In this document: positions 7,811-15,821 of the stretch, piece by piece | Layout of the letters: each line of letters begins with the position of its first letter | Position numbering within the stretch: the stretch's first letter is position 1 | Source: a virus | Strand: one strand, 5' to 3' | DNA: 32,116 nt | Virus record (IMG/VR): IMGVR_UViG_3300020203_000062 | Span: 1 to 32,116 of that record | Notes under the pieces: model-generated | The model's input: the letters and a program-made list of their open reading frames with translations, nothing else | Databases searched by the model: none | What the model was told of the DNA's origin: nothing | Program-made: the position numbers and the translations under genes

Positions 7811-8133
7811 AAGATTCCCCCGAAAAAATCCTACGCCGCTGCTGGCGACACGGCGACACCACGCTGCTCGGTGAAATCAACGCCAGCATGCCGCTGTTGG
7901 TGCATGCCATCGAGCAGGCCGACAGCACGGCGCGCGCAGACATCGAATGCGAATGCCATTGTTCCGGCAACAGCGGACTGAAGGCCGGCTGGTGGTGGGA
8001 TACCACACCAACGGCAACGGATGACGAGGGCCACGAACGCATCACCAACCAGGTGCTCTACCTGGAAGAGCGCGGTTTGCTGGTGCGCCTGGAAGGCGCA
8101 CCGCACATCGTCACTTTTATCGAGGCCGCATGA
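7807..8133 (+). CDS. Hypothetical protein, 108 residues
   Basis: The protein begins with MKDSPEKILRRCWRHGDTTLLGEINASM and carries a CECHC cluster near residue 50. Its C-terminal half (ITNQVLYLEERGLLVRLEGAPHIVTF) has the spacing of a winged-helix wing, so a small DNA-binding protein is possible but not shown. It is joined to both neighbours by ATGA overlaps (7807-7810 and 8130-8133), so it is clearly part of the operon. Confidence 0.6.
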   Translation: MKDSPEKILRRCWRHGDTTLLGEINASMPLLVHAIEQADSTARADIECECHCSGNSGLKAGWWWDTTPTATDDEGHERITNQVLYLEERGLLVRLEGAPHIVTFIEAA

Positions 8134-8939
8134 CCGCGCTCGCAATTGATCTGTTCTGCGGACTCGGTGGCTGGACCGAGGGCTTACTTGCGGAGCGGTA
8201 CGATGTTGTCGGCTTTGACATCGAGCGGCACGAATACGGCGCAGAGAAATACCCGGCGCAACTGGTTCTGCAGGACGTTACAACGATTCACGGCTCACAG
8301 TTCCGCGATGCCGCCCTGATTGTCGCCAGCCCGCCGTGCCAGGAGTTCAGTTACATGGCGATGCCGTGGTCACGTGCCAAGGCGAAGCAAGCCGCTATCG
8401 AGGCCGACACAACCGGGGTCGAGCGTGCGCGACTCACTGCGTTGTTTGACACTTGCTTTCGCATTCAGCGCGAGGCAATCGCAGCCAGCGGTCGCTATAT
8501 CCCGATGGTTGTCGAAAACGTCAGGGGTGCGAATAAGTGGGTCGGTCGGTCAAGGTGGAATTACGGCAGCTTTTTCCTTTGGGGCGACGTGCCCGCGCTG
8601 ATGCCGATGACCAATAATGGCATAAAAAATCCCGGCATGAATTGGAGCGGCAGCGACAAACCCGGCTACGTCGCGGAGGCGTTCAATTCAACGAAGGTTC
8701 CCGGCTTCCGCTTCGACGGCTCTGGCAAGTCTTTTCAGTCGACTGCGGTTGCAGAAACCGGCGTGAAACAGCCCGGAATATCCGGGGCGCGCGCAAACGG
8801 CAAGGGCGATAAATGGTTTCAGGATGGCGCCGCGCGGCACGGCAGCAAATCATCCGCCAGAAAAGCCGCCGCCGCACGCATCGCAAAAATTCCATTGCCG
8901 CTAAGCCGCCACATTGCCGCGTACTGGAAACCCGCATGA
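8130..8939 (+). CDS. C5-cytosine DNA methyltransferase
   Basis: A 269-residue protein with the order of motifs of C5-cytosine methyltransferases. Motif I DLFCGLGGWTEG (residues 7-18) binds S-adenosylmethionine. Motif IV ASPPCQEFSY (66-75) holds the catalytic cysteine C70. Motif VI is VVENVRG (127-133). A C-terminal motif X-like end is LSRHIAAYW. It is short for the family, with a small target-recognition region, as is usual in phage enzymes. There is no restriction partner beside it, so it most likely protects phage DNA from host restriction or alters expression. Joined to the next gene by ATGA. Its first 14 bases are identical to those of the next gene. Confidence 0.9.
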   Translation: MTALAIDLFCGLGGWTEGLLAERYDVVGFDIERHEYGAEKYPAQLVLQDVTTIHGSQFRDAALIVASPPCQEFSYMAMPWSRAKAKQAAIEADTTGVERARLTALFDTCFRIQREAIAASGRYIPMVVENVRGANKWVGRSRWNYGSFFLWGDVPALMPMTNNGIKNPGMNWSGSDKPGYVAEAFNSTKVPGFRFDGSGKSFQSTAVAETGVKQPGISGARANGKGDKWFQDGAARHGSKSSARKAAAARIAKIPLPLSRHIAAYWKPA

Positions 8940-9199
8940 CCGCGCTCGCCCTGTTCACCAGCACCTACATCCTCGTCTGCGCGCTGGGGTTGCAAAGTCT
9001 CAACGTCAACCGCGGCCACTACGCACCCGCATTCGTCACCAGTTTATTCATCGGCAGCACGCAATGGTTCCTGCTGAAAACAGTGCCCGGCGACACCGGC
9101 CTGCTGGAAATCACCGCCTACCTGCTCGGCGGGCCCCTCGGCATCATCACCTCGATGTGGTTGCACCCCAGAATCACCAAAAAAAGGAAAGCCCCGTGA
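8936..9199 (+). CDS. Small membrane protein with three hydrophobic segments
   Basis: An 87-residue protein starting MTALALFTSTYILVCALG, with hydrophobic segments at about 3-18, 29-49 (APAFVTSLFIGSTQWFLLK) and 56-76 (LEITAYLLGGPLGIITSMWL), ending in a basic tail RITKKRKAP. That suggests three membrane passes with the tail inside. The ATG overlaps the methyltransferase stop, and its own stop overlaps the ParB GTG start as GTGA. The function is unknown. The position between the methyltransferase and ParB gives no clear hint. Confidence 0.65.
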   Translation: MTALALFTSTYILVCALGLQSLNVNRGHYAPAFVTSLFIGSTQWFLLKTVPGDTGLLEITAYLLGGPLGIITSMWLHPRITKKRKAP

Positions 9200-10926
9200 A
9201 CGCCATCACCGAACTACCCGCTGCCGAGGCCGCGCTCGAACTCATCCCCATTTCCAGCATCCGCGTCAGCCGCACTGCCGTGCAGACCCTGCGGCGTGAA
9301 CACAACAGCGCCGAAAAGTTGCTCGAACTCGCCGCGAGCATTGCGTCCAGCGGCGTCCTGCAGCCGATCCTGGTGCGCCCGGTGCCGGTGTCCGGCACCA
9401 TCAAATACGAAATCGTCGCCGGCGAACGCCGCTGGCGGGCCGCTGATCGCGCCGGCCTCGCACACATCCCCTGCATCGTGCGCGACTGCGACGACCGCCA
9501 GACCCTGCAGGCCCAGCTCGTCGAAAACACCGCGCGCGAGGAATACAGCGCGCTCGAAGAGGCCACGGGTTTTCGCGAAATGCTCGCGCTTGAGCCCGGC
9601 CTCACCGCCGAAACCCTCGGCGCGCGCCTCGGCAAATCGCGCAGCTACGTCTACGCCCGCCTCAAGCTGCTCGACCTCATCCCCGCCGCGCAACAGGCCC
9701 TGGCTGACGGCAGCCTCGACGCGAGCAAGGGCCTGATCATCGCCCGCATCCAGGGCGAAAAAATGCAGGCGCGTGCACTCCACCTCGTCACCACGCAGGC
9801 CCATTACTACAGCTACCGCCGCCTCATCGAAAAACTCCGCGACGACTTCATGATCCCCATCGCGCAGGCCGCGTGGCTGCCCGACCGCGACAGCCTCCAC
9901 CTCCCCAAAACCGGCGAGCCGATCATCACCTGCGCCGGCTGCCCCAGCCGCAGCGTCAACGACCCCGAACTCCACGCCGAAGTCACGGGCAGCGACGTCT
10001 GCACTGATCGCGCGTGCTTTGATTTAAAGACCAGGCTGCACTGGTCGCGGATCAAAGCCGATTACGAAGCGCAGGGCCACACCGTCGCCACCGGCGCCGC
10101 CGTCGATGACTACATCGACACCAGCGGCCTTGGGCGCCACTGCGGCGTCCACAACAACTACCTGCGCATGGATTTTGAATGCGACACCATAGAATTTGCC
10201 GAGGCCGAACCCGATCAGATCAAGGGCGAGCCCGACGACGTCTATGAGATGCGCAGCGATTTATGGCAGCAGCGCTGCAACGCCTGGCAAGCGCCCACCT
10301 TCGCCAGCCTGCTCGGCACCGTCGTCGGCACCCAGCTCGTCCAGGGCCGCGACGGCAGCATCATCGAAGTGGCCCCCGCCGCCGCCGTCGTCAAAGCCCT
10401 GCAGGCCAAGGGCATCGAAGTGCCGTGGTTTCTTGAAGAAAATCCGCGCGGCAGCGCCACCGAAGCCGACAACAAAATCGCAGAACAACGCGCCAGCGCC
10501 GAAGCCGTCAAAGAATCCGAACGCATTAAAATCGAAGCCGCATACCGCGCTCGCCTGCTCGCGCAGATCCACGCCGAGTGGAAACCGCCGCTCAAACGGC
10601 ACGACCTCGAAAGCATCGCATGGCGCATGGAATACGCCGCTGACGACACCGCCGCGTTTGACGCGCTCTACACGGCGAACGTCGATATCACCAAACTCAA
10701 AGAGCCCGAGCTGCAGCGCTACATGGTGATTTACGCGATCAGCGGCGACTGCCTCTACGACCGCTGGACCCAGCACAAATGCAGCCGCCTGCTCGATTAC
10801 GCCCAGCGCCTGAAAATCGACACCAAGAAACTCCGCGCCGAAGTCGTCAAGGGTTTCCGGCTGGTGTTAGCGAGCGCTAAACCTGAAGCCCAAGCAGCCG
10901 CGAAAAAGAAAGGGGTGGGGAAATGA
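9196..10926 (+). CDS. ParB-like DNA-binding protein (ParB/RepB/Spo0J family)
   Basis: A 576-residue protein starting at a GTG that overlaps the previous stop as GTGA, with AGGAAA upstream. Residues 16-123 form the ParB N-terminal domain: SSGVLQPILVRP, VAGERRWRAADRAG (74-87) and ENTAREEYSALEEA (110-123). An HTH follows at about 137-160 (LTAETLGARLGKSRSYVYARLKLLDL). A cysteine-rich knuckle (CAGC...CTDRAC) and a long helical C-terminus come next. This form is common in phages and mobile elements. It binds specific DNA and probably CTP through the GERRxRA region. No ParA is seen in the window, so a role in regulation or replication is as likely as partition. Confidence 0.85.
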   Translation: MNAITELPAAEAALELIPISSIRVSRTAVQTLRREHNSAEKLLELAASIASSGVLQPILVRPVPVSGTIKYEIVAGERRWRAADRAGLAHIPCIVRDCDDRQTLQAQLVENTAREEYSALEEATGFREMLALEPGLTAETLGARLGKSRSYVYARLKLLDLIPAAQQALADGSLDASKGLIIARIQGEKMQARALHLVTTQAHYYSYRRLIEKLRDDFMIPIAQAAWLPDRDSLHLPKTGEPIITCAGCPSRSVNDPELHAEVTGSDVCTDRACFDLKTRLHWSRIKADYEAQGHTVATGAAVDDYIDTSGLGRHCGVHNNYLRMDFECDTIEFAEAEPDQIKGEPDDVYEMRSDLWQQRCNAWQAPTFASLLGTVVGTQLVQGRDGSIIEVAPAAAVVKALQAKGIEVPWFLEENPRGSATEADNKIAEQRASAEAVKESERIKIEAAYRARLLAQIHAEWKPPLKRHDLESIAWRMEYAADDTAAFDALYTANVDITKLKEPELQRYMVIYAISGDCLYDRWTQHKCSRLLDYAQRLKIDTKKLRAEVVKGFRLVLASAKPEAQAAAKKKGVGK

Positions 10927-11213
10927 AGAGTAATTTTCTTCGCATGTGCGAGCATGGGGTTGTGCTAGGGCATCCGTGCGTCTACTGCGCTGCTCAGGAG
11001 CCTGACCGCGAGAAGAATCGCTCTTTCGGCGAGTACGTCATAGACTCGATCACGAAGCAGCAGCAGTTGATCATCGACCTATCGGCTCTGGTGCGCCGCA
11101 TGTCATATCAAATAAAGCGAGATGGCACGAACGATGCGATGGTGAAGCAATCAGTAGAGTTTCTAAAGAAGCATAACCTTGGCGGTTCGGTTCTCTGCGA
11201 GGAGGGGAAATGA
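10923..11213 (+). CDS. Hypothetical protein with C-terminal EEGK junction
   Basis: A 96-residue protein beginning MKSNFLRMCEHGVVLGHPCVYCAAQEP. The pattern CxHG...HPCxYC (C9, H11, H17, C19, C22) looks like a small zinc knuckle. The rest is helical (FGEYVIDSITKQQQLIIDLSALVRRM). It ends LCEEGK, the first of the repeated 17-base junctions. The start overlaps the ParB stop as ATGA. No family is known to me. Confidence 0.65.
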   Translation: MKSNFLRMCEHGVVLGHPCVYCAAQEPDREKNRSFGEYVIDSITKQQQLIIDLSALVRRMSYQIKRDGTNDAMVKQSVEFLKKHNLGGSVLCEEGK

Positions 11214-11539
11214 GCGAAGAACAAAAGCGATTAATTGACGTGCCAGCGGAAATCCTAGCGGCCAATGTGGTCTCCTCCATGATTAAGGCAAGAGGCGTTA
11301 TTAACCTTTGGGACGCGATGATACTGCGCCTTATAGTTGATATGCGGAAAGAGGCGGCGGATGATTTGGCGTTAGCTACATCGGCACGCACCACGCAGGA
11401 GCTTGTAGCAACGCTGCTATGCTGCGACCCGGAAGATGGGCGAGATGGGTTCTGGTTAAGTCTCGAAGACAAGCAGCGGCTAAGCAAGTTGCCCGCTGGA
11501 ACAAAGCTTTACACCGCCATTCGCGAGGAGGTGAAATGA
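11210..11539 (+). CDS. Hypothetical helical protein
   Basis: A 109-residue protein starting MSEEQKRLIDVPAEILAANVVSSM, mostly helical with no cysteine motif or membrane segment. The C-terminal part has LSLEDKQRLSKLPAGTKLYTAIREEVK. It begins in the junction GCGAGGAGGGGAAATGA and ends in the related GCGAGGAGGTGAAATGA, so it sits between two junction copies as one cassette. AT-richer than the genes before it. Function unknown. Confidence 0.65.
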   Translation: MSEEQKRLIDVPAEILAANVVSSMIKARGVINLWDAMILRLIVDMRKEAADDLALATSARTTQELVATLLCCDPEDGRDGFWLSLEDKQRLSKLPAGTKLYTAIREEVK

Positions 11540-11787
11540 GCATCGAAACTTGGAAGAAAGAGTTTTATTCGGTAGAGGCCGGCATTCTCAACAGCGCCGC
11601 AGACGTGGTGTTGCTTGAAATGAGCATCGAAACTTGGAAGAAAGAGTTTTATTCGGTAGAGGCCGGCATTCTCAACAGCGCCGCAGACGTGGTGTTGCTT
11701 GAAATGAGCATCGAAACTTGGAAGAAAGAGTTTTATTCGGTAGAGGCCGGCATTCTCAACAGCGCCGCAGACGTGGTGTTGCTTGAA
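11536..11787 (+). repeat. Exact 84-bp tandem triplication
   Basis: Three identical 84-base units (11536-11619, 11620-11703, 11704-11787) lie in frame at the start of the gene. The base string TGAA precedes the first unit and also ends each unit, so slippage on this 4-base match may have made the copies. Zero differences point to a recent event or an assembly error. Confidence 0.95.
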
Positions 11788-12144
11788 CACTCGATCAAAA
11801 AATGGGAAGGATTGCAAACAGAAAACCTCGAACGTCACGAGCTGAGAGCGACCCCCAGGCGCTACGACAGGATTGAGGACGTGGAGGGAGCCGGTTTTTA
11901 TATAAACTCGGCGAGTTGCTCTCTCTGCGTAAGGTATCTATTTCCCAAGGGCGCCAATGATCGCCGCTGCGGAAACTGCCCGCTGAGCAAAGTCAGAGGG
12001 GATGCAGCATGCGACGAGGACGCAGACGTAGACGGTGACGATCCCGCTCCTTTTAACGTGTGGGGTCTAGCGGCTAACCCAGAACCGATGCTTCATTGGC
12101 TGAGAAAAGCGCTGAAGGTCGCAATGCTCAAGGAGGGGAAATGA
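11536..12144 (+). CDS. Cysteine-rich paralogue 1, with triplicated N-terminus
   Basis: A 202-residue protein whose first 28 residues (MSIETWKKEFYSVEAG...) occur three times in exact tandem (residues 1-28, 29-56, 57-84). After this comes HSIKKWEGL, then a cysteine-rich part (CSLCVRYLF... RRCGNCPLSKVRGDAACD) that could bind one or two zinc ions, an acidic Asp-rich link and a helical end NPEPMLHWLRKALKV. Without the extra copies it would be 146 residues, the size of its paralogues at 12674 and 13740. The inner ATG codons have no ribosome site. Starts and ends in junction repeats. Function unknown; the cysteine pattern is seen in uncharacterised phage proteins. Confidence 0.7.
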   Translation: MSIETWKKEFYSVEAGILNSAADVVLLEMSIETWKKEFYSVEAGILNSAADVVLLEMSIETWKKEFYSVEAGILNSAADVVLLEHSIKKWEGLQTENLERHELRATPRRYDRIEDVEGAGFYINSASCSLCVRYLFPKGANDRRCGNCPLSKVRGDAACDEDADVDGDDPAPFNVWGLAANPEPMLHWLRKALKVAMLKEGK

Positions 12145-12272
12145 GCAAGGAACTGATTGCCAGGTTGAGAGCGCGGAAGGTTAAGCATGTGGAATATATT
12201 ACAACAAGGCGAACACCCCGGACGAACCACGAGAGCATACACAGGGAGGACAATGAAACCAATACCGATTAA
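12141..12272 (+). CDS. Short basic frame, 43 residues
   Basis: The frame begins MSKELIARLRARKVKHVEY directly in a junction repeat (AGGAGGGGAAATGA), overlapping the stop before it, so its start signal is strong. It is rich in R, K and H and ends within the next gene (overlap 12253-12272). It may be a real small basic protein or the truncated start of a lost cassette gene, read into the next one. Confidence 0.4.
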   Translation: MSKELIARLRARKVKHVEYITTRRTPRTNHESIHREDNETNTD

Positions 12273-12465
12273 AGCCGCGGAACATATTGCCAAGAAGTAC
12301 GGGTATAGCCAAGTCGTAATTATTGCCCGTGGGGTTGGGGTTGGCGAGCACTGTACTACATACGGGATTGATCAGGAGAATTGCGACGTCGCTGTGCGCA
12401 TTGGCGACTTTCTGAAGTATAAAGTGATGGGGTGGATTAAGGAGAACCATGAGACCAGACCTTGA
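12253..12465 (+). CDS. Conserved-looking phage protein of unknown function, 70 residues
   Basis: Starts MKPIPIKAAEHIAKKYGYSQVVIIARGVG, with GGGAGGAC just upstream; longer forms have no ribosome site. It is a compact alpha/beta sequence: helix AAEHIAKKYG, strand QVVIIARGV, then EHCTTYGIDQENCDVAVRIGDFLKYKVMGW. Very similar small proteins are common in phages of proteobacteria from memory, with no function known. It lacks the EEGK ending, and the next tiny frame starts within it after a strong AAGGAGAACC ribosome site. Confidence 0.65.
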   Translation: MKPIPIKAAEHIAKKYGYSQVVIIARGVGVGEHCTTYGIDQENCDVAVRIGDFLKYKVMGWIKENHETRP

Positions 12466-12502
12466 AATGCTGCGCGATTATCACGGCGAGGAGGGGAAAT
12501 GA
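12449..12502 (+). CDS. Seventeen-codon frame ending in EEGK
   Basis: The frame MRPDLEMLRDYHGEEGK has a very good ribosome site (AAGGAG, 6 bases before the ATG) and ends in an exact copy of the 17-base junction (12486-12502). It looks like the start of a gene joined straight to a junction, i.e. a collapsed cassette, or a coupling leader. Confidence 0.35.
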   Translation: MRPDLEMLRDYHGEEGK

Positions 12503-12672
12503 CACCAAAGCGGAAAGTCTTGAAGAAACACATCAACACTTGTTCGGATCTGTTTACAGGGGGCTGGATTGAATTTCGGGACTACGGCATGCAGCTTGGC
12601 GTGGGCAAAAGCGCGGCGGTGGCGTGGAAGAATGCTGCAGAGAACGTAGCCCGAAGACAAAGGGGAAGGTGA
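12499..12672 (+). CDS. Small basic protein, 57 residues
   Basis: The frame starts in the junction at 12486-12502 (MTPKRKVLKKHINTC) and ends RRQRGR one base before the next ATG. It has basic ends and a middle with WIEFRDYGMQLGVGKSAAVAWKNA, which could be a short HTH-like helix pair. No family is recognised. It fills the gap between two cassette genes and has a good start signal. It is the one gene in this block that does not end in the EEGK junction. Confidence 0.55.
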   Translation: MTPKRKVLKKHINTCSDLFTGGWIEFRDYGMQLGVGKSAAVAWKNAAENVARRQRGR

Positions 12673-12673
12673 A

Positions 12674-13105
12674 ATGAGCATCGAAACTTGGAAGCAAGAG
12701 TTTTATGCGGTAGAGGCCAGCGTTGTCGGCAACGACACAGACGTGGTGTTGCTTGAACACTCGATCAAAAAATGGGAAGGATTGCAAACAGAAAACCTCG
12801 AACGTCACGAGCTGAGAGTGGACTGCGCCAGGATTGTAGACGTGGGGGGAGTAAATTTTTACATAAATTCAGAGAGCTGCGCGCTTTGCAGAAAGTGTCT
12901 ATTTTTCAACGAACAAGCCAGTTGCGCACCCTGCCCGCTGTATAAAGTCAGAGGGGGTGTGGCATGCGACCGGGTCGACGCAGACGCAGACGGTGACGAC
13001 ATCTCTCCTTTCGAGGCGTGGAGGGACCGGGCTGACCCAGAACCGATGTTGACCTGGTTGAGAAAAGCGCTGAAGGTCGCAACCTGCGAGGAGGAGGGGA
13101 AATGA
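12674..13105 (+). CDS. Cysteine-rich paralogue 2
   Basis: A 143-residue protein with the same layout as its paralogues: MSIETWKQEFYAVEA, HSIKKWEGLQTENLERHEL, the cysteine-rich part SCALCRKCLFF...CAPCPLYKVRGGVACD, an Asp-rich link and DPEPMLTWLRKALKVATC. It ends CEEEGK in a junction copy with one extra GAG. An 81-base stretch (12738-12818) is identical to 11768-11848 in paralogue 1, and the C-terminal DNA is nearly identical to paralogue 3, so this gene is a mosaic. Ribosome site AAGGGGAAGGTGAA. Function unknown; zinc binding is likely from C-x2-C pairs. Confidence 0.7.
   Translation: MSIETWKQEFYAVEASVVGNDTDVVLLEHSIKKWEGLQTENLERHELRVDCARIVDVGGVNFYINSESCALCRKCLFFNEQASCAPCPLYKVRGGVACDRVDADADGDDISPFEAWRDRADPEPMLTWLRKALKVATCEEEGK
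12738..12818 (+). repeat. 81-bp identical segment shared with 11768-11848
   Basis: The stretch from CAGACGTGGTG to GCTGAGAG is identical between paralogues 1 and 2 over 81 bases, while the sequence on both sides differs. This indicates recent duplication or gene conversion within the array. Confidence 0.9.
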
Positions 13106-13743
13106 CTGATACAGTCTTAAAACCATGCCCATTTTGTGGCGGTACCGCCGAGATTAAACGCCGCGGGACGGCCAGAATGTCAATGCTTATAGGTTGTGTT
13201 GACTGTCATGCAGAGGTTGAGTCAGGGGATGTGTGTGGGGTGACTGCCGTAGAAAATTACAAATGGAACATGCGGAAGCCACTCGCCAAGCAGGAACACA
13301 CAGACGATTTGGCCGTTAATCGGTTCTCCGAAGCGATGAAAAAGAAACTTTCAAAAAAGCGCAAGGCCGGACGCAGCGGGTGGGATGACCCGGAGCAGTG
13401 CAGTATTGATTTTTTGATAAGGTTGCTGCACGAACACTACCAAAAAGGTGATGTGGTTGACATCGCCAACATCTGCATGATGTTAAATCAGCGTGGGGCG
13501 AAAGCAGACTGGAGGCTACCTGCGGATAGACTCACCGCGATGACCGCGCTGGAAAGGGAAAACAAAGAGCTGCGCCAACGCATCAGGCAGTTTGAATTCT
13601 GCATCGGCCGCGTCGCCATCGCGCTGGGAGGCGTTTGTTGCGGCGGAGTCGATGTCACGCTGCAGCACCTGCAGGCCGATCCGCATTCAACGACGCGTGT
13701 ACTTTGTGACGCTATCGCTGCACTTCGCGAGGAGGGGAAATGA
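13102..13743 (+). CDS. Lar-like restriction alleviation domain fused to a second phage domain
   Basis: A 213-residue, three-part protein. Residues 6-52 match the Lar family zinc domain: LKPCPFCGGTAEI (C9, C12) and GCVDCHAEVE (C32, C35), then AVENYKWN. Residues 70-135 (AVNRFSEAMKKKLSKKRKAGRSGWDDPEQCS... HYQKGDVVDIANICMMLNQRG) form a domain common in phage accessory proteins. A C-terminal coiled-coil (LERENKELRQRI, about 150-162) and helix end in REEGK. Lar of the Rac prophage lowers host restriction, so this may act with the methyltransferase. Only the Lar part is recognised with fair confidence. The fusion of these units is notable. Cassette junctions at both ends. Confidence 0.7.
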   Translation: MTDTVLKPCPFCGGTAEIKRRGTARMSMLIGCVDCHAEVESGDVCGVTAVENYKWNMRKPLAKQEHTDDLAVNRFSEAMKKKLSKKRKAGRSGWDDPEQCSIDFLIRLLHEHYQKGDVVDIANICMMLNQRGAKADWRLPADRLTAMTALERENKELRQRIRQFEFCIGRVAIALGGVCCGGVDVTLQHLQADPHSTTRVLCDAIAALREEGK

Positions 13744-14171
13744 GCATCGAAACTTGGAAGCAAGAATTTTATGCGGCAGAGGCCGGCATTCTCAACAGCG
13801 CCGCAGACGTGGTGGCGCTGCGCCATTCTATAAAGAAGTGGGAAGGGCTGCGACCTGGAAACCTAGAGCGACACGGGCTGAAAGTGAGCTCCAAGCATGG
13901 CCGATCCAGGATCAAAGATGTGGAGGGAGAAATTCTCCACATAGACTCAGTATCCTGTGCGCTTTGCCACAAGTATTTGTTTTCCGGCGGCATGCACCGG
14001 TGCGGCAATTGTCCGCTGAGTAAAATCAGAGGAAACGTGGCGTGCGACGTGGACGTAGACGGCGACGACATCTCTCCTTTCGAGGCGTGGAGGAAAGGGG
14101 TTGACCCGGAACCGATGTTGACCTGGTTGAGAAAAGCGCTGAAGGTCGCAACCTGCGAGGAGGGGAAATGA
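13740..14171 (+). CDS. Cysteine-rich paralogue 3
   Basis: A 143-residue protein, MSIETWKQEFYAAEAGILN, with HSIKKWEGL, a cysteine part SCALCHKYLFSGGMHRCGNCPLSKIRGNVACD, the Asp-rich link DVDVDGDDISPF and DPEPMLTWLRKALKVATCEEGK. Starts and ends in exact copies of the 17-base junction. Its first 28 residues match the unit triplicated in paralogue 1 apart from a few changes, and its last 30 match paralogue 2. Conserved points across all three are the tryptophans, the cysteines, CPL, RG and the C-terminal helix. Function unknown. Confidence 0.7.
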   Translation: MSIETWKQEFYAAEAGILNSAADVVALRHSIKKWEGLRPGNLERHGLKVSSKHGRSRIKDVEGEILHIDSVSCALCHKYLFSGGMHRCGNCPLSKIRGNVACDVDVDGDDISPFEAWRKGVDPEPMLTWLRKALKVATCEEGK

Positions 14172-14683
14172 GCAGAAGCGATTACAGCGACGATTGTTAT
14201 GGCTGGGAATTAATCTGCTATCGCGGCGCAGTAAAGTCTGCCATTCGCGGCAAACGTGGGCAGGCACTGCTGAACGAACTTGTCGAGGCATTGGATGCGC
14301 TGCCAGAAAAAAGCCTGTCAGCAGAATCTCTGGTGTCCCGGGATGGCGAATACTGCGCGCTAGGGGCATTGGGGCGTATGCGAGGCATGATTATGGAGCC
14401 TACCGATCCGGATGACGTAGACGCCAGTGAGGTGGCAAAGATGTTCGGGGTAGCGACTGCGCTAGCAGCGGAGATCATGTTTGAGAACGATGAAGTAATC
14501 AGTGAAAACCGGTGGGTAAAAGTTGAGACATTCGGCCCATTACCTCGACATGGGATGCGAGAAAGAACTGTTAAGGTTGCAGACCCACTGGCCGGTGAGA
14601 GGCGATGGCTTCACATGCGCGAATGGGCAATGAGTAATCTGTTTCCGGCAGCCGCCGCCAACGCAGCACAGAAATGTTCCTGA
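14168..14683 (+). CDS. Hypothetical phage protein, 171 residues
   Basis: Starts MSRSDYSDDCYGWELICYRGAVKSAIRGKRGQALLNEL in the last junction repeat. It contains EYCALGALGRMRGM and DDVDASEVAKMFGVATALAAEIMFEND, a layout I know from uncharacterised proteins in many proteobacterial phages. Mostly helical, no membrane or metal motif. It ends a few bases inside the DUF4224-type gene. No function is known. Confidence 0.65.
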   Translation: MSRSDYSDDCYGWELICYRGAVKSAIRGKRGQALLNELVEALDALPEKSLSAESLVSRDGEYCALGALGRMRGMIMEPTDPDDVDASEVAKMFGVATALAAEIMFENDEVISENRWVKVETFGPLPRHGMRERTVKVADPLAGERRWLHMREWAMSNLFPAAAANAAQKCS

Positions 14684-14871
14684 CCCGCGCAGAAATCGAA
14701 GAACTCACCGGCTACAAACGCGGCAAGGATCAGTGCGCCTGGCTAACAGATCACGGATGGGTGTTTGAAATTGATGCGCACGGGCGGCCCAAAATATCGG
14801 TAGAGTATTGCCGGATCAGGATGGGCGGCCAGATTGAGGCGCCCAAACGCTGGCAACTCAAGGTCGCATGA
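14674..14871 (+). CDS. DUF4224-type protein beside the integrase, possible excisionase
   Basis: The 65 residues MFLTRAEIEELTGYKRGKDQCAWLTDHGWVFEIDAHGRPKIS match the DUF4224 domain found next to many phage integrases: an HTH-like start with E-L-T-G-Y, C-x-W-L-x2-H-G-W and a D-x2-G-R-P turn. Its stop overlaps the integrase start as ATGA, so the two are made together. Size, pattern and position suit a recombination directionality factor, but that function has not been shown for this sequence. Confidence 0.8.
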   Translation: MFLTRAEIEELTGYKRGKDQCAWLTDHGWVFEIDAHGRPKISVEYCRIRMGGQIEAPKRWQLKVA

Positions 14872-15821
14872 AACTCCCCCCGAAACTCCGGCAGAAGGGC
14901 AAAGCGTACTACTACGACCACGGCGGCAAGCCGCGGAAATGGGAGCGCCTGGGCAGCGTCTATGCGACCGCACTCATTAAATGGGCTGACATCCACAAGG
15001 GCCGCGACGCGGAGCTGCGCACCGTGGGCTCGCTCGTGGATCTCTTTATCTCCAAAAAACAAACGTTGGCCGAGAGCACCCTGCGCAGCTACCGCCTCTA
15101 CAAACGCGTGCTCGACAAAGTCAACGCATCCCCGGCGCCGATGCTCGCGCTCGACCAGGGCCACCTGCACCAGCTAATCGACGACTACCCAAAAAAACAG
15201 ATCGCCCGCAACACCGCATTGTTTGTTAAAACCGTGTACGCATGGGCCGTCTCCCGCGGTCACCTGCAGAGCTCGCCTTTCACAGGGATGCGGCTCAAAG
15301 GCACATCGAGGCGGAGGCGCTACCTCACCGATGCCGAATTCCTCAGCATCCGCCAAAAACTCGAGCCCAAGTTTCAGGTCGCGGCCGATCTTGCCTACCT
15401 GCTAGGCCTACGCGTGTCCGAAGTGCCCATGCTGCGATTCGCTGATTTCAAGGACGGCGTGGTCACCATCCGCCAACAGAAAACCAAATCGGTCAAACAG
15501 CAGATCATCACCGAAGACGTCAAAGCGGTCCTCGAACGCGCCAAGACCCTGCCGGGCGCTGTGCGTGGCCTCGCCCTGGTCTGCAACCGCAGCGGCCAGC
15601 CCTACAGCCCACAGACCATCTCCGGCGCATTTTTTGAAGCCAGCAAGCTGGCCGGAATCAAAGACGTGCGCTTCCACGACATTCGCGCCAAAAGCGCCAG
15701 CGACGAAACCGCAACCGCACAGGCCCGGCTCGGCCACGCCACCAGCCAGACCACCCAGATCTACCTGCGCAAACCCATTATCGCAACCCCGATCAACAAG
15801 GTCAAAGACGCTAAAATGTAG
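14868..15821 (+). CDS. int: Tyrosine recombinase, phage integrase
   Basis: A 317-residue integrase. The N-terminal 50 residues (KAYYYDHGGKPRKWERLGS) form a small arm-binding region. Residues 52-140 are the SAM-like core-binding domain. The catalytic domain has R182 (LGLRVSE), K205 or K207, H270 and R273 (FHDIR), H290 (LGHA) and the nucleophile Y299 (IYLR), so the active site is complete. It inserts and, with a partner, removes the phage by recombining attP and attB. The stop codon lies inside the palindrome TGTAGAAGACTTCTACA, and further copies of its arm follow downstream, so attP is probably adjacent. Confidence 0.92.
   Translation: MKLPPKLRQKGKAYYYDHGGKPRKWERLGSVYATALIKWADIHKGRDAELRTVGSLVDLFISKKQTLAESTLRSYRLYKRVLDKVNASPAPMLALDQGHLHQLIDDYPKKQIARNTALFVKTVYAWAVSRGHLQSSPFTGMRLKGTSRRRRYLTDAEFLSIRQKLEPKFQVAADLAYLLGLRVSEVPMLRFADFKDGVVTIRQQKTKSVKQQIITEDVKAVLERAKTLPGAVRGLALVCNRSGQPYSPQTISGAFFEASKLAGIKDVRFHDIRAKSASDETATAQARLGHATSQTTQIYLRKPIIATPINKVKDAKM

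Follow-up and report, generated by a model that had tools for sequence, protein, structure and literature searches.

A repeated coding junction in a putative cassette-exchange zone

IMG/VR virus record IMGVR_UViG_3300020203_000062, analysed here over its entire 32,116 bases (the window), carries between its ParB-like gene and its excisionase and integrase genes an array of small genes joined by copies of a 17-base junction, GCGAGGAGGGGAAATGA. We conclude that the region from the ParB end to the last array gene, I, is probably a cassette-exchange zone with translation-ready junctions, in which exchange most likely takes place between junction copies. Small genes would be joined head to tail by junction copies related by descent, each holding the last codons of the upstream gene, a Shine-Dalgarno (SD) site and an ATGA stop/start overlap. 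Gain, loss or replacement of a gene set bounded by such junctions would leave the reading, ribosome sites and coupling of its neighbours intact. Crossovers would most likely join one junction copy to another (about 14-26 bp of homology), whether between phages that share a cell or inside a single genome, with longer homologies inside paralogs assisting exchange and illegitimate events occurring as well.

Four exact copies of the junction were found at 11197-11213, 12486-12502, 13727-13743 and 14155-14171, and near copies at 11523-11539 (one mismatch, GGTGAAATGA), 12128-12144 (two mismatches, final 14 bases the same, TCAAGGAGGGGAAATGA) and 13089-13105 (two mismatches; read over 13086-13105, this copy is GCGAGGAGGGGAAATGA with an extra GAG). 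These seven matches at three or fewer mismatches all lie on the + strand, as do the genes described below, and all fall between 11.2 and 14.2 kb; shuffles gave a chance expectation of 0.04, and none of 100 attained seven. The coordinates and copy numbers in the initial annotation of this DNA were all borne out, and a count over the rest of the window, which is the whole virus record, found no copy of the junction core outside the array zone.

Each copy encodes EEGK, or a peptide close to it, in the frame that ends in TGA, and its ATG starts the next gene. The unknown genes g1 (10923-11213, 96 aa) and g2 (11210-11539, 109 aa) are joined by an exact copy and end in VLCEEGK and AIREEVK, respectively. 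The one-change copy then leads from g2 into gene A (11536-12144, ending in MLKEGK), which is followed by D (12141-12272, 43 aa), E (12253-12465, 70 aa) and the open reading frame (ORF) E2 (12449-12502, 17 aa, MRPDLEMLRDYHGEEGK, ending in DYHGEEGK). An exact copy joins E2 to F (12499-12672, 57 aa), the copy with the extra GAG joins B (12674-13105, TCEEEGK) to H (13102-13743, 213 aa, ALREEGK), and exact copies join H to C (13740-14171, TCEEGK) and C to I (14168-14683, 171 aa, phrog_25637), the right end of the array. Other boundaries are arranged differently: at F/B (12661-12677) the leader is similar and the overlap is absent, with the stop just 5' of the ATG, and D/E, E/E2, I/J and J/integrase (J being the excisionase-like gene) use other start sites or arrangements, indicating that the junction is not the standard ribosome site of this phage. 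At the left end, the ParB gene (9196-10926) finishes in the related GGGGTGGGGAAATGA (10912-10926, encoding KKKGVGK), within a 26-bp ParB-end junction, GAAAAAGAAAGGGGTGGGGAAATGAA (10902-10927).

Junction re-use compared with ordinary ribosome sites

When 2.9 million viral contigs from IMG/VR were scanned, the exact 17-mer occurred in 16 other stretches, one copy each, 4 of the 16 being in the relatives G001-G004 described below. The unrelated contigs always read EEGK and then ATGA, as would be expected if ATGA overlaps had converged on the ribosome site that works best within them. Coding, ribosome binding and coupling come together automatically when a strong SD site precedes an ATGA overlap. 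The proposal in the initial annotation that this triple role is less familiar did not survive the comparison, as the 17-mers of other contigs are built likewise, and so is the lambda ninR region, a chain of ATGA-linked genes (Kroger and Hobom 1982, as cited in PMC8022706). The special feature is the re-use and trafficking of the junction, not its triple role.

Rates of repetition make convergence a very improbable account of that re-use. The 13 bases before each ATG were compared with those of ATGA junctions with an SD site from 45 other phage loci, the null excluding junctions of loci chosen for holding the 17-mer. Among the window's 21 junctions, at least 12 of the 13 bases agree in five non-homologous pairs, a number that none of 20,000 random draws from the other loci attained. 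Pairs between the window and other phages were never alike at 12 of 13 bases (0 of 6195), and annotated coupled genes in stretches of lambda and Angelica were alike at 9 of 13 bases at most. No other stretch held more than one exact copy, and in several copies the homology extends past the SD site. The explanation by an ordinary optimal ribosome site is thereby rejected, and the sequence comparisons show the copies to be identical by descent.

Other phages also repeat their own junctions, with four such pairs against 0.5 expected, a number attained in 5 of 2000 permutations; TCAAGGAGAAGAACACATGA occurs twice in stretch L073 (8311, 8478) and ATGCCAACCAAGGAGAAATGA twice in L090 (10219, 11320). 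As a separate observation, L073, L090 and L025 carry different coding/SD/ATGA junctions repeated between unrelated genes, with the protein ends KEKNT, MPTKEK and SGSGK.

Array pieces in otherwise unrelated phages

A search with the protein family formed by A, B and C led to four IMG/VR records, G001, G002, G003 and G004, of which G002 is a second assembly of G001 (99.9% identical over 11.9 kb). In a piecewise comparison, the DNA common to the window and G001, G003 and G004 was confined to the array zone, in pieces of 26-480 bp, mostly at 80-100% DNA identity and in orders that differ from the window. G001, G003 and G004 share DNA among themselves almost only in the zone, with one 48-bp G003/G004 match elsewhere, and the single protein match to the window beyond the zone is weak and helicase-like (27%). 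Overall GC content is 0.60 in the window, 0.46 in G001, 0.43 in G003 and 0.55 in G004, and 0.47-0.54 in the zones. Replication and head genes also differ: G001 has a DNA ligase, a phosphoesterase and exonucleases; G003 a Dda-like helicase, a portal protein and a terminase; and G004 a DNA polymerase, a helicase, another portal family and a thymidylate synthase. By these comparisons the zone is shared among phages that appear otherwise unrelated. An integrase (of phage type) was found in the window and none in G001-G004; these records may be incomplete, so its absence is no proof of a lytic life.

Shared blocks end at junctions, with changed neighbours beyond. With G001 the window shares a block of 417 bp (12086-12502) at 97.6% identity, up to the last base of the junction (TGA), after which F follows in the window and a non-homologous gene in G001. 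Identity to G003 (96.2%) extends to 14169, within GGGGAAATGA; at this C/I junction it runs to GGGGAAAT, and then comes I in the window and a different gene in G003. In G004, the stretch encoding H's C-terminal module (13545-13743) is matched at 95% identity as far as ATGA. At another junction, a gene common to G003 and G004 ends in GAGAGGGAAGTGATATGA (ATATGA), the two being the same up to ATGA and unlike beyond.

Different genes between conserved junctions in relatives, which the initial annotation had put forward as a test of its idea, were thus found, and one gene set bounded by two junction copies is there in one record and missing from another, its flanks being homologous. In the window the site is filled: A is followed by D-E-E2 (358 bp with the junction) and then F, and the junction copies on both sides of the set, the left one at A/D, share AGGAGGGGAAATGA. 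In G004 the site is empty, a relative of A leading directly into a relative of F through one junction. Over the final 66 bases of A, junction included, the window and G004 do not differ, F is 76% identical over 148 bases, and D-E-E2 has no significant match in G004. G001, which also has a relative of F, holds the same D-E-E2 set among other neighbours, with E at 99% identity and E2 identical. The filled and empty sites are what a crossover between two junction copies would give.

The ParB-end junction recurs as well. Its 26 bp are identical in G004, with sequence unlike on either side, and G004 is the only other IMG/VR contig that holds its 23-base core. G004 reads it in another frame, within a longer open frame, showing that the DNA and not the peptide is conserved. 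This bears on the idea that the C-terminal EEGK is itself functional, as a tag or degron. Several unrelated products do end in EEGK or near it, but the variants KEGK, EEVK, EDGK and KDGK also occur, F lacks EEGK, and the ParB-end junction was kept as DNA across a change of frame; we find a peptide function scarcely credible as the explanation.

Exchange also seems to reach below the level of whole genes. The C-terminal module of H is present in G003 and G004 behind different N-termini, three N-termini in all, and in G004 it is fused to the relative of F. The zone proteins look like assemblies of N-terminal, middle and C-terminal modules that can be exchanged. We also observed that the ends of G003 contigs (the start of L008 and the end of L010) both lie in copies of the H C-terminal module and the C gene that are 98% alike over 140 bp; the G003 assembly probably broke at this repeat. 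In G001 (L006 1925-7132), repeats of 43-70 bp precede several early genes (1932, 2152, 5170, 5485, 6671, 7093) and are perhaps repeated promoters.

Paralogs and cargo

Genes A, B and C are paralogs with about 59-65% protein identity, so six boundaries flank one gene family. They are mosaic in DNA, B being closest to A over its first 150 bases and to C over its last 100, and C is 92% identical in amino acids to the G003 copy. The initial annotation overlooked this paralogy, which covers part of the junction repetition; its statement that unrelated proteins share a C-terminus holds for g1, g2, E2 and H against A, B and C, and fails among A, B and C themselves.

Under duplication alone, a gene with its own leader and tail would have been tandemly duplicated into A, B and C, and the junctions would be its ends. 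Most junction copies are indeed ends of these paralogs, and A itself contains a tandem repeat. But the exact g1/g2 and E2/F junctions lie outside the family, which largely refutes duplication as the sole process, and neither H nor I is related to A, B and C. Junctions also adjoin other genes in G001, G003 and G004, and the ParB-end junction recurs in G004. We therefore judge it improbable that duplication alone made the array.

The tandem repeat forms the 5' end of gene A and consists of three perfect, in-frame 84-bp units (28 aa each) at 11532-11787, which begin at TGAAATGAGC, within the junction; it resembles either a very recent expansion or an artefact of assembly. In another phage, three genes of this family stand in tandem (L080 8420-10330), suggesting that the family tends to be arrayed. 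The family is cysteine-rich, and its fold, predicted with confidence (pLDDT 87), had no structural match at E <= 0.001 in PDB or BFVD. Neither the family nor the F-H fusion was confirmed in any of 84,980 bacterial and archaeal genomes. The N-terminus of H resembles Lar (restriction alleviation), barely over the Pfam cut-off (Lar_restr_allev, 29.4 bits against 28.6). With one Lar-like gene, our guess is that the cargo serves counter-defence or host takeover.

Junction-guided exchange and illegitimate joining as candidate mechanisms

From the edges and the filled and empty sites, we infer that junction homology guides or promotes the crossovers. In its favour, 8 of 12 block edges (in window coordinates) lie within 5 bp of a junction, and such places make up 6% of the zone; the resulting p of ~7e-8 assumes independent edges and is only a guide. 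Several points weigh against this mechanism. Gene duplication accounts for part of the junction repetition; the junction also joins unrelated genes. Viable exchanges surface at gene boundaries under any mechanism, and since gene ends are harmless places for exchange, edges would gather at them through selection alone. The edges at 12086 and 13545 lie within genes, as do others among G001, G003 and G004, and at 9072 in G001 the two parts of a join overlap by about 2 bp, with a shift of frame, so exchange cannot run solely through the junction homology that the initial annotation proposed. RecA needs homology for which 14-17 bp is short. No annealase of the RecT, ERF or Rad52 type was found in the five records, which are possibly fragments. 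On the other side, we count reports that phage recombinases tolerate diverged homology (PMC2327257, PMC3945230).

The same intragenic edges, the 9072 join and the missing annealase favour illegitimate recombination at random places followed by selection, in which only joins that keep both genes whole survive and the junctions are passengers. Against it, the same exact junction is reused between different gene pairs, and the filled and empty sites are bounded by two junction copies; in both cases a junction-to-junction crossover is simpler. We rate random joining as rather unlikely to be the whole account.

Junction-guided exchange may also be part of something wider. It is possible, though we would sooner doubt it, that phages with nothing else in common draw on a shared, circulating pool of very small cassettes and sub-gene modules, with junctions as recombination handles, integron-like without a dedicated recombinase, and each lineage using its own junction. 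The context for this idea is that one phage appears temperate and the others have no integrase in their records, that GC content ranges over 43-60%, and that L073, L090 and L025 have other repeated junctions.

Whether phage mosaicism arises by short boundary homology or by random joining with selection is an old open question (PMC3945230, PMC3029335). In this array there are several exchanges between unrelated phages that look recent, as well as filled and empty sites, and the coding, ribosome-site and homology roles of the junction can be separated by recoding, which makes the question directly testable. Repeated coding junctions would mark exchange zones, making them a possible screen, and counter-defence genes might profitably be sought in such zones.

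Comparison with known systems

Integron cassettes are promoterless genes gained and lost between repeated sites, and the array resembles them in its genes gained and lost between repeated sites. It differs in that its junctions are coding and asymmetric. No inverted repeats or palindromes were seen at the window junctions, and site-specific cassettes of the integron kind were rejected, as there are no palindromic attC-like sites and no integron integrase was seen.

We regard the array as a new variant of lambdoid-boundary or Start-Associated Sequence (SAS)-like mosaicism. Like lambda ninR, it consists of small accessory operon genes with ATGA overlaps and SD sites within the upstream coding sequence. 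The array genes had no match to nin-family genes in Pfam or PHROGs, leaving only the working principle in common. As with the boundary sequences of lambdoid phages, an idea discussed in PMC3029335, a short sequence is conserved where its mosaic segments end, and recombination has been proposed at such boundaries. Lambda junctions, however, are only loosely alike (9 of 13 bases in the best pair), whereas those of the window are near-identical and pieces of the array occur in unrelated phages.

The SAS of cluster K mycobacteriophages is likewise a short repeated sequence with an SD site before many unrelated genes, and its authors also suggested a role in recombination (PMC3203893). Unlike SAS, the window junction also encodes the upstream C-terminus and stop, and the inverted 17-bp repeats (ESAS) found upstream of about half of the SAS sites are absent from window junctions; the SAS consensus GGGATAGGAGCCC had no match at up to two mismatches. 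In Brujita and Island3 (genes 67-68), the last 18 residues of an extra gene repeat those of the upstream gene, for which recombination over about 50 bp at gene ends was the explanation given (PMC3029335). That case is one event with longer homology, whereas the window has a series of 14-26 bp copies shared among unrelated phages.

Neighbouring genes and other features

Judged by its gene content, the window is a temperate tailed phage, with repressor-like and CII-like regulators, a helicase, a capsid-protease fusion, a tape measure protein, an excisionase and an integrase. The array is preceded by the ParB-like gene (Pfam ParB_N, 7e-26, and HTH_ParB) and adjoined on the right by the excisionase-like gene J (14674-14871; phrog_4764, 5e-18) and a tyrosine integrase (14868-15821; Phage_integrase, 1e-14). 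No known RNA families were found in the zone, and among named phages the only matches were to ParB and to a short stretch where gene I begins. The matches of an ORF at 8130-8939 (269 aa) are confined to parts of DNA methyltransferase families, and it is possibly a truncated methyltransferase.

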